DNA from: a bacterium
GTDB lineage: Bacteria; Electryoneota; RPQS01
Length of the DNA stretch: 32,967 nt
Direction: 5' to 3'
Assembly: GCA_018812265.1 (NCBI GenBank)
Contig: JAHJDG010000137.1
Span: 1 to 32,967 of the forward strand
The translations under genes were made by a program, and so were the position numbers. Each line of letters starts with the position of its first letter. The first letter of the stretch is position 1. Below, piece after piece: positions 30,632-32,229 of this stretch. The notes under the pieces were generated by a model. The model did not search any database, had not been told where the DNA came from, and saw only the letters and a program-made list of their open reading frames with translations.

Positions 30632-31402
30632 CTATCGTCCGCGCACGCGGTTGTAGGCATCGGCCAACATCGCCAGGATGCCGGATTCCGAAGATCCCTG
30701 AATCATGTGCGCGAGCACGGGATGAGTAACGAAGTAGGAGAACATCAGCGCCGAGAGCGGCAGGCCGACGAGCACGAAGTACGCATGATGACGATGCTCG
30801 AGCCGGTCCTGCGCGCCGAGTTCGTGCAGAAACGTCCACACCCGCTCGTCTTCATATTCGGTGTCGGTGAGCGTCAGCGCTTGATAAGACCAGAGAATCG
30901 CCACCGGCATGAACATCAGGAACACCGTGGCCGGAAAACGCGACCACACGTCGTTGATTCCCACCACCAGCAACGCGAAGACGACGCCGATGATCAAACC
31001 CCACGTGGTGAGATTCTTGTATTGGCGGATAGTTTCGCGCTCGCGCCGCAGAATCCTGGGCGCAGCCAAGAGAAGCGGGAAGTAGATCCGCCCGATGATC
31101 GCCGCGAACATCGCCGCATAGTAGACCGTGACCACAAACCAGAAGGTTCGCCGGTCAATGAAATGAACGAGGTCCGGTTGCCCGAGGATCTGCATCGTCA
31201 CCGCGAGAATCCCCAGAATCACCATGAGGAGAAAGAACCAGAAGTTCGTACTGCGGTCTTCCAGCCATTGGCCAATCAGGCTGCGGTCCTGAATTCCGCT
31301 TCGTCTTCGAGTCGGCTTGAAACAGTGCGGGCAGCGCGTCTTGAATCGCTTGCGAAACGAAATCTTACGCAGGCAGTGGGGACAACGGCTAGGGGCAAGC
31401 AT
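30632..31402 (-). CDS. Zinc-ribbon membrane protein
   Basis: The 256 residues start with a zinc ribbon, CPHC at 7-10 and CPHC at 24-27, flanked by basic residues. Five or so membrane segments follow (starting near 54, 85, 129, 161 and 208), with charged loops between. No named family is recognised. Zinc-ribbon plus membrane layouts are common among uncharacterised proteins that sense or assemble at the membrane. The gene lies 25 bp upstream of the S9 peptidase start and may share its transcript. Upstream 31403-31770 is non-coding. Confidence 0.8.
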   Translation of the reverse strand: MLAPSRCPHCLRKISFRKRFKTRCPHCFKPTRRRSGIQDRSLIGQWLEDRSTNFWFFLLMVILGILAVTMQILGQPDLVHFIDRRTFWFVVTVYYAAMFAAIIGRIYFPLLLAAPRILRRERETIRQYKNLTTWGLIIGVVFALLVVGINDVWSRFPATVFLMFMPVAILWSYQALTLTDTEYEDERVWTFLHELGAQDRLEHRHHAYFVLVGLPLSALMFSYFVTHPVLAHMIQGSSESGILAMLADAYNRVRGR

Positions 31403-31564: not shown

Positions 31565-31579
31565 ATGCCTTATCGGCAT
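31565..31579. promoter_or_regulatory. Possible upstream activator half-site (ATGCC-TTATC-GGCAT)
   Basis: A small inverted repeat lies about 110 bp upstream of the sigma-54 promoter core, within the usual range for an enhancer-binding protein. It is short, and could be chance. Confidence 0.25.
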
Positions 31580-31676
31580 ACAGGGTCGCCAGTTTGGCAG
31601 TAAGCTGTCAGCAAAATAATTCATTAAGGGTCAAGAATTGTTCGTAATGCAATAATCCACAGACTATTAGGTCGCA

Positions 31677-31692
31677 TGGCACGAGCGTTGCA
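31677..31692 (+). promoter_or_regulatory. Sigma-54 (RpoN) promoter upstream of hsp20
   Basis: TGGCACG-AGCG-TTGCA matches the -24/-12 consensus TGGCACG-N4-TTGCW at every defined position, and the GG and GC elements have the required spacing. It is 79 bp upstream of the hsp20 ATG on the same strand. Confidence 0.8.
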
Positions 31693-31770
31693 GAATGCAG
31701 GTATTGGAACGGCAAATGGGCCGTCTCGACAAAATCACCACCAAGAAACGGAAAATAGGAGAAAACAGCC

Positions 31771-32229
31771 ATGACGATCACAAGATGGAGACCGCTGAAT
31801 GCGGACGCAATGCGCCCCTTCTGGGCCGATGCGATGAGCCCGATTTCCCGAATGATGGACGACTTCTTCGCGAACCAGCGCTCGGGCGACATGATGGCCT
31901 GGGGGCCGAACGTGGACATCGTCGAGAATCCCGACGGATTCGAGATCCACGCCGAACTGCCGGGCGTCAAGGAGGAGGACGTGAACATCACCCTCGACAA
32001 CAACGTGCTCACGCTGTCCGGCGAGAAGAAGCAGGAAGTCCGGGAAGAGAACAAGGGCAACTACTGCCGGATCGAACGCAGCTACGGCCGCTTCGAGCGC
32101 AGCTTCAGCCTGCCCAACACCATCAAGGCCGAGAACGTGCGGGCGAGCTTCGAGGACGGCGTGCTTCGCATCACGCTGCCCAAAGCCGAACAGGCCAAGA
32201 GCCGCTCGATCCAGATCGCCAAGAAGTAA
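31771..32229 (+). CDS. Small heat-shock protein (Hsp20 / alpha-crystallin)
   Basis: The 152 residues have a Trp/Met-rich N-terminal arm (RPFWADAMSPISRMMDDFFANQ), then the alpha-crystallin domain (VDIVENPDGFEIHAELPGVKEEDVNITLDNN, LTLSGEKKQEV), then NYCRIERSYGRFERSFSLPNTI, and the conserved motif GVLRITLPKAE. An I-x-I-type end (SIQIAKK) is present. It prevents aggregation of unfolding proteins. The ATG has AGGAG about 9 nt upstream. A sigma-54 promoter lies upstream and a strong terminator downstream, so it is transcribed alone. Confidence 0.96.
   Translation: MTITRWRPLNADAMRPFWADAMSPISRMMDDFFANQRSGDMMAWGPNVDIVENPDGFEIHAELPGVKEEDVNITLDNNVLTLSGEKKQEVREENKGNYCRIERSYGRFERSFSLPNTIKAENVRASFEDGVLRITLPKAEQAKSRSIQIAKK

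Follow-up and report, generated by a model that had tools for sequence, protein, structure and literature searches.

In nearly the whole of the phylum examined here, the small heat-shock gene hsp20, and often dnaK as well, lies behind sigma-54 promoters that need an ATP-driven activator. Textbook bacterial heat shock is governed by sigma-32 or by repressors of the HrcA type. The present analysis yields an enhancer of 13 bp and two candidates for the activator, and it shows a clear partition of tasks with HrcA; the signal that acts on the sigma-54 chaperone genes of Bacteroidota-like bacteria thereby becomes open to testing. The window, by which we mean the whole stretch of 32,967 nucleotides that was analysed, carries one such hsp20 gene, and the features of this locus are collected in Table 1. 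We consider that the hsp20 gene of the window is almost certainly under the control of sigma-54 and an enhancer of its own. The joint reading, in which this control holds and the activator is a predicted sensor-less enhancer-binding protein (EBP), hereafter EBP A, is given a probability of about 0.58. Labels beginning with G, C, and L are our handles for genomes, contigs, and loci, respectively, and G000 is the genome of the window.

Table 1. Features of the hsp20 locus in the window (positions are those of the whole stretch).
Feature	Positions	Strand	Basis or remark
Possible further palindrome TGCCTTATCGGCA, 8/10 positions	31566..31578		by eye; 21 bp upstream of the main palindrome
UAS palindrome CGCCAGTTTGGCA, 9/10 positions of TGYCAN3TGRCA	31587..31599		starts 90 bp before the -24 element
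Overlapping palindrome TGGCAGTAAGCTGTCA (TGGCA-N6-TGTCA)	31595..31610		search with the second pattern
Sigma-54 promoter, -24 TGGCACG and -12 TTGCA (TGGCACG-N4-TTGCA)	31677..31692	+	consensus match, shuffles, conservation
Predicted transcription start	31703..31703	+	inferred from 31691, the C of the -12 GC
Ribosome-binding-like AGGAG	31757..31761	+	read from the sequence
hsp20, small heat-shock protein, 152 aa	31771..32229	+	PF00011, E 3.2e-27

The hsp20 product of the window contains the Hsp20/alpha-crystallin family domain PF00011 (95 bits against a cut-off of 20.8) and has an orthologue that is 87% identical within the same genus. Upstream of the gene, TGGCACGAGCGTTGCA at 31677-31692 on the forward strand shows 0 mismatches to TGGCACGNNNNTTGCW, which we take to be the sigma-54 consensus. 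The -24 GG and the -12 GC are correctly spaced, and the 3' end of the promoter lies 78 bases ahead of the hsp20 ATG at 31771. The first-pass annotation had claimed that this 16-bp core matches the RpoN consensus at all defined positions; the match is indeed exact and goes beyond chance. The transcription start that it expected near 31703 agrees with the start that we predict from position 31691, the C of the -12 GC. A divergent neighbour of hsp20 at 30632-31402 on the reverse strand encodes 256 aa; by eye, its product begins with a stretch rich in Cys and looks membrane-like in places, and it has no Pfam match.

The 400 bases upstream of hsp20 were shuffled 300 times without once reaching the promoter score, and the exact match to TGGCACGNNNNTTGCW is present as a single copy in the 3.5 Mb genome of the window (97% complete). 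However, we reckon that chance alone would supply roughly one exact match in a genome this large. A scan of this genome allowing one mismatch gave 27 sites compared with 46 for the backwards pattern, and a scan of the window allowing two mismatches gave 3 sites compared with 5.6 expected. Sites with one or two mismatches are thus no commoner than in the controls, which means that weaker matches stand at chance level and that a motif match alone is weak evidence. The palindrome of the window, when taken alone, is at chance level as well (3 one-mismatch matches against 3.17 expected). It could be argued from these figures that the promoter is a chance match and that hsp20 is really controlled by sigma-70, HrcA, sigma-32, or an RNA thermometer. 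We regard this as highly improbable, because the conservation of the promoter, the enhancer, and its phasing, all described below, argue against a chance match. Moreover, a sigma-70-type scan found 0 sigma-70-like promoter pairs at the hsp20 locus, and the window contains 0 matches to CIRCE at up to 3 mismatches. With regard to RNA thermometers, the fold of the hsp20 5' UTR is like that of its shuffles (z 0.01), and no RNA-family match came near its cut-off, which gives no sign of a ROSE-type element.

Sigma-54 promoters require an upstream enhancer and an ATP-driven activator. A genome lacking rpoN had been named in the first-pass annotation as an observation that would speak against its proposal; RpoN is encoded in the genome of the window with its activator-interacting, core-binding, and DNA-binding domains (three Pfam domains). 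The same genome encodes 12 strong matches to sigma-54 activators and 8 weaker ones.

The collection comprised 39 genomes of the phylum, and the region upstream of hsp20 (up to 450 bases, at the best match) was read in 38 of them. G004 was left out of this reading because its sole match reaches a weak 45 bits, comparable to the second Hsp20 copies. Promoters were scored by a simple weighting of our own with a maximum of 20.5 and a threshold of 17.5. A promoter scoring at least 17.5 is found upstream of hsp20 in 36 of the 38 genomes, compared with 3 of 38 on the reverse strand and a mean of 1.23 (maximum 4) among shuffles of the hsp20 regions. On the strength of this conservation, the chance reading of the -24/-12 site was rejected. 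All defined promoter positions are kept in 11 of the 36 promoter-bearing regions, and among the phylum promoters scoring at least 16.5 the GG is present in 37/37 and the GC in 36/37, a result that selection by score favours. The two genomes that fall short of 17.5 are G006, where the gene is a fragment, and G009, where the best site (CGGCATACTGGTTGCC) scores 16.5.

The enhancer (UAS) is conserved along with the promoter. A site agreeing with TGYCA-N3-TGRCA at 9 or more of 10 positions, with its start 54-160 bp ahead of the -24 element, precedes hsp20 in 35 of the 38 genomes (shuffles: mean 0.33, maximum 3), the exceptions being G006, G028, and G033. Promoter and UAS occur together in 34 of the 38. 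Every one of the eight families of the phylum includes one or more genomes with the palindrome at hsp20, and the commonest bases of the UAS sites spell TGCCATAATGGCA. The further palindrome of the window, TGCCTTATCGGCA, is weak and sits inside a terminator-like stem on the reverse strand.

Across 51 sites, the UAS lies 67, 77, 86-91, 97-100, 108-112, 121-122, 129-135, 138, or 143-146 bp from the promoter, that is, in steps of about 11 bp. With one site taken per genome (35), 0 of 20,000 uniform draws were as periodic (p 5e-5), and over the 20 distinct distances the p value was 2e-4. Both p values are rough, since the best period, 11.25 bp, coincides with the upper limit of the periods tried (10-11.25) and the genomes share ancestry. 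The proposal of sigma-54 control of hsp20 with which the first-pass annotation began is strongly supported by these results, as RpoN is encoded, the promoter is conserved, and the enhancer is both conserved and helically phased.

Outside the phylum, an hsp20 promoter scoring at least 17.5 was found in 5 of 21 genomes (reverse strand 2 of 21), and promoter and UAS were found together in 2 of the 21 (G039 and G044). G046 carries a 10/10 UAS at hsp20 and a promoter that departs from the consensus at the -12 GC (score 15.5, shuffle p 0.28), and G045 carries a 10/10 palindrome, no promoter, and no near full-length match to EBP A. In a further collection of 38 named loci of hsp20, searched with a looser pattern and no control, a -24/-12-like site was seen in nine: G001 and G011 again, L082, L087 from Pirellulaceae, L095 from Verrucomicrobiia, and L094, L096, L099, and L106 from Kiritimatiellales/Pontiellaceae. 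The sites of L094, L096, L099, and L106 end in TTGT, and L082 additionally carries the UAS. No -24/-12-like site was seen in the remaining Kiritimatiellales/Pontiellaceae of this set, nor in its loci titled Proteobacteria or Chloroflexota groups. The -24/-12-like sites of L087, L094, L095, L096, L099, and L106 have no exact TGYCAN3TGRCA within 450 bp, as if hsp20 in L087, L094-L096, L099, and L106 were perhaps driven by a different EBP.

The elements defined at hsp20 were also found at other genes of the phylum. A strict pattern, consisting of the UAS, a spacing of 66-96 bp, and the promoter, gave 12 matches in the 39 genomes and 0 in the backwards control. Nine of these are at hsp20, one is at lon (G034), one is at dnaK (G006), and one, in G016 (L129), is unexplained. 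The sole ORF listed at this last match starts about 650 bp away, and the match was taken as chance and rejected as a target. The second pattern, TGRCA-N6/7-TGYCA followed by the promoter, has an N6 option that was derived from this window; it gave 8 matches in the 39 genomes, all at hsp20 and the window included, and 0 when read backwards. Because both patterns were built from hsp20 loci, independent evidence comes only from the lon and dnaK matches and from the controls.

Of the 32 genomes in which dnaK was matched, 30 had the region upstream of this gene read, with gene starts located by motif. The promoter is present in 23 of the 30 (reverse strand 1, shuffles 0.97), the UAS in 15 (shuffles 0.32), and both elements in 13, and CIRCE was found in 0 of these 30 phylum regions. 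In the genome of the window, dnaK is preceded by the palindrome TCTGCCATTATGGCAGA and then by TGGTTCACTCATTGCA, with a weak promoter (TGGTTC, score 17.5, shuffle p 0.045). The lon gene of this genome follows closely on rpoN; neither a sigma-54 site nor a UAS precedes it, and it was ruled out as a target. On the contig concerned (G000:C159; L195:1-4006), rpoN and lon come one after the other behind a gene for an ABC-transporter ATPase that looks lptB-like by eye, all on the same strand.

The first-pass annotation had further suggested that sigma-54 control ties chaperone expression to another stress. Our results give this suggestion no particular support; the elements of hsp20 recur at dnaK in many genomes and at lon in one, and the circuit therefore looks like protein quality control. 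The search for the motif upstream of other chaperone genes, which it had recommended, was successful in the genome of the window for dnaK and unsuccessful for lon, and groEL has CIRCE instead.

The groEL gene served as an internal negative control. A match to groEL is present in 36 genomes, and the gene was read in 29 of 30 loci (that of G009 was too short). The sigma-54 promoter was found in 2 of the 29 (shuffle mean 2.37) and the UAS in 1, whereas CIRCE, at 16 or more of 18 positions, is present upstream of groEL in 26. In the genome of the window, the groEL CIRCE is complete (18/18) and lies about 940 bp ahead of the gene. HrcA is encoded in 38 of the 39 phylum genomes. Taken together, the elements at dnaK and hsp20 and the CIRCE at groEL indicate that chaperone control is split, with sigma-54 and the enhancer serving hsp20, often dnaK, and one lon, and HrcA serving groESL.

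Two members of one family may depart from this arrangement. A CIRCE-like match at hsp20 occurs in 1 of the 38 genomes, G019, where it agrees at 16/18 positions and overlaps the promoter. The repeat, TTAGCAGTC-TGGCACGGCGATTGCTAA, is superimposed on the promoter upstream of hsp20 (L066), and HrcA might repress the sigma-54 promoter of hsp20 in this genome. A weaker CIRCE-like repeat (13/18) is present at hsp20 in G014, which belongs to the same family. In G014:C38 (L182:4237-7334), the order is UAS, sigma-54 promoter, hsp20, a small ORF, and groEL. Here hsp20 lies 740 bp upstream of groEL, and groEL has no CIRCE within 900 bp upstream, so it is possible that sigma-54 serves both genes.

We propose a mechanism in which RNA polymerase with sigma-54 would transcribe hsp20 from the -24/-12 element at 31677-31692. 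A Fis-type EBP would bind the palindromes at 31587-31610, assemble into a ring-shaped ATPase on the side of the helix turned towards the polymerase, and remodel the closed complex. The same activator, together with sigma-54, would turn on dnaK in many members of the phylum and lon in at least one, and groESL would be left to the repressor HrcA acting via CIRCE. In this scheme the activator would be EBP A, a PspF-like and sensor-less protein that is presumably restrained by another protein and freed by damage to proteins or to the envelope. The first-pass annotation had held that a dedicated EBP is needed. That such an activator exists is likely; which EBP it is, the signal to which it responds, and the induction of hsp20 by heat are points that we infer.

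EBP A (L034; G000:C225:2593-3672) is a protein of 360 aa with the domains Sigma54_activat, AAA_lid_14, and HTH_8 and no sensor domain. Its gene lies between purD and lptE in the genome of the window, and LptE (PF04390) is encoded directly after it in all five genomes checked (G000, G014, G011, G039, and G019). EBP A gave a reciprocal best match in 5/5 comparison genomes of the phylum and is present at near full length in 33 of the 39. We think it probable that EBP A is the activator of hsp20 in the window. It was not found in six phylum genomes, namely G003 (56% complete), G005 (80%), G006 (88%), G021 (77%), G028 (93%), and G036 (80%), and these are draft assemblies, in which absences are soft. 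Among the six, G003, G005, G021, and G036 have a 9/10 UAS at hsp20 and G006 has a 10/10 UAS at dnaK. The presence of the UAS in genomes without a found EBP A means that EBP A was either missed there or is not the activator.

The same promoter and enhancer could instead be served by EBP B (L032; G000:C226:2473-3996), a protein of 508 aa with GAF, AAA+, and HTH_8 parts, in which case the signal would be a small molecule or phosphorylation rather than the release of a sensor-less activator. EBP B is present in 35 of the 39 phylum genomes, compared with 33 for EBP A, and occurs in five of the genomes in which EBP A was not found (G005, G006, G021, G028, and G036). It gave a reciprocal best match in 4/5 genomes, the fifth (G001) having a fragment only, and a kinase gene adjoins it in the genome of the window. 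This kinase gene, which shares the stretch G000:C226 (L190:712-3996) with that of EBP B, encodes a Ser/Thr protein kinase with a PEGA domain. However, EBP B was not found in G003, G016, G019 (98% complete), and G029 (91% complete), all of which have a 9-10/10 UAS at hsp20, the UAS of G019 and G029 being 10/10.

The recognition helices also bear on the choice between the two proteins. The helix of EBP B reads SLRWLHYK, whereas that of clade A reads GERTLYRK, and the latter is seen in G039 and G046, where hsp20 has the palindrome; yet G039 has EBP B too. In G046 (99% complete), which bears the UAS, the helix of the clade-A EBP reads GIGERTLYRK, and the listed matches to EBP B are without the GAF part. 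In an EBP tree of 48 rows, from which the EBP of G044 (L364) was left out, G039, G041, and G046 group with EBP A (support 97/95). The hsp20 gene of G041 has no 9/10 UAS despite the clade-A EBP of this genome. Presence and absence inside the phylum discriminate between EBP A and EBP B only partly, as both show gaps among the matches listed, which include the best one of every genome. On balance, activation by EBP B appears rather unlikely to us. As a separate observation, the clade-A EBP of G041 has an N-terminal extension and adjoins a gene for an M50 site-2 protease (PF02163) at G041:C8 (L363:1980-4423), an adjacency that gives a hint of envelope-stress input.

There is room for still other activators among the 12 strong EBP matches of the window's genome, such as the receiver-type L031 group, or for different EBPs in different families. 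The L031 group is nearly as widespread, with reciprocal best matches in 4/5 genomes, and no EBP gene is found near hsp20 in the phylum loci searched. Nevertheless, the palindrome occurs at hsp20 across all eight families, in at least one genome of each, and G014, which is 100% complete and has a 10/10 UAS, encodes five strong EBPs and no reciprocal match to L031. We therefore hold this alternative to be a good deal less probable than activation by EBP B.

Further EBP genes were considered and set aside. In a search of loci L049-L136 for an EBP gene beside hsp20, only L104, L106, and L112 (Pontiellaceae) matched, at 25-28% identity and in the receiver region of L031 alone. An EBP gene on the contig of hsp20 in G048 has a receiver-like start by eye, and its product falls outside clade A. 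A side observation concerns G000:C9:8476-8491 (L004, L033), where a sigma-54 site with one mismatch, TGGCACAAGGCTTGCA, closely precedes an EBP gene whose product has a receiver-like start by eye, which suggests a self-regulated sigma-54 module.

If EBP A is the activator, a wider role can tentatively be imagined for its clade. An EBP of this one clade, sensor-less or with a pseudo-receiver, may be the master activator of the cytosolic chaperones hsp20 and dnaK in the phylum and in G039 and G046, being encoded beside lptE in the members checked and in G039. It might be held by a partner, either a chaperone or an envelope protein, and freed by protein damage. Such a positive sigma-54 switch would stand beside HrcA and would perhaps predate the version seen in Bacteroidota, which brought groESL under its control as well. 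We offer this as a speculative scenario, less probable than not in its entirety.

E. coli PspF is the EBP of the phage-shock response. EBP A is like PspF in consisting of AAA+ and HTH parts with no sensor domain. Unlike PspF, it scores 273.8 and 229.5 against curated cut-offs of 443.55 and 529, and its gene has purD and lptE as neighbours in the genome of the window. One paper treats PspF as a class that has no signal domain (PMC3162934). The word 'hsp20' is absent from the main text of that paper and from that of PMC4641369.

Small heat-shock genes have been placed under sigma-54 elsewhere. According to PMC4370416, ibpB of E. coli is transcribed by sigma-54, which is similar to the control proposed here. 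In E. coli, the ibpAB genes are also transcribed by sigma-32, whereas no sigma-70-type site was seen at hsp20 of the window. The Hsp20 of the window scores far under the cut-offs for IbpA and IbpB (30.6 compared with 212 and 26.3 compared with 207, respectively). Parts of other studies mention a Geobacter Hsp20 gene that was altered in an IHF mutant study (PMC7962754) and tandem sigma-66/sigma-54 promoters at hrcA-grpE of Chlamydia trachomatis (PMC8762339). The HrcA/CIRCE system is present in our phylum (HrcA in 38/39 genomes, CIRCE at groEL in 26/29) but absent from the window and from dnaK (0/30).

A survey has predicted that GroEL, IbpA, GroES, GrpE, DnaJ, and DnaK are enriched among sigma-54 genes in Bacteroidota and Planctomycetota, as given in passages of PMC12316311. 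Our results are like these in that the small heat-shock COG0071 and DnaK are among its predicted sigma-54 genes. The main text of the survey is without the word 'Calditrich-', and its passages name no enhancer or activator. Within the open-licence literature, with subscription journals mostly outside, we recognised no paper dealing with the enhancer described here or with hsp20 as a sigma-54 target in Calditrichota-like bacteria.

The closest likeness is to Flavobacterium psychrophilum (Bacteroidota), for which excerpts of PMC9723704 give mapped transcription starts with sigma-54 motifs at groES-groEL, lon, dnaK, grpE-dnaJ, htpG, skp, and clpB, and three predicted proteins with a sigma-54 interaction domain. 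The inducing situations named in those excerpts are growth on blood agar, osmotic pressure, plasma, and freshwater, and not heat. In the same source, a gene for a sigma-54-dependent regulator (THC0290_0733) is followed by lptE (0732), with groES-groEL at 0729-0728. The phylum described here is similar in having sigma-54 sites at dnaK (23/30) and lon (G034) and, in gene order, an EBP gene followed by lptE; the EBP-lptE pair of F. psychrophilum is listed under another promoter class (SM5) in PMC9723704. Two differences stand out against the rows of that source. The groESL genes are a sigma-54 target in F. psychrophilum, whereas here they have CIRCE in 26/29 loci and a sigma-54 site in 2/29 (PMC9723704). 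Moreover, hsp20 is not among the rows seen for F. psychrophilum, whereas here it is the most conserved target and its enhancer is defined (PMC9723704). As such, sigma-54 control of chaperone genes is already known in kind from F. psychrophilum, and what is new is the hsp20-centred, phylum-wide version of this control, the enhancer, and the split with HrcA.
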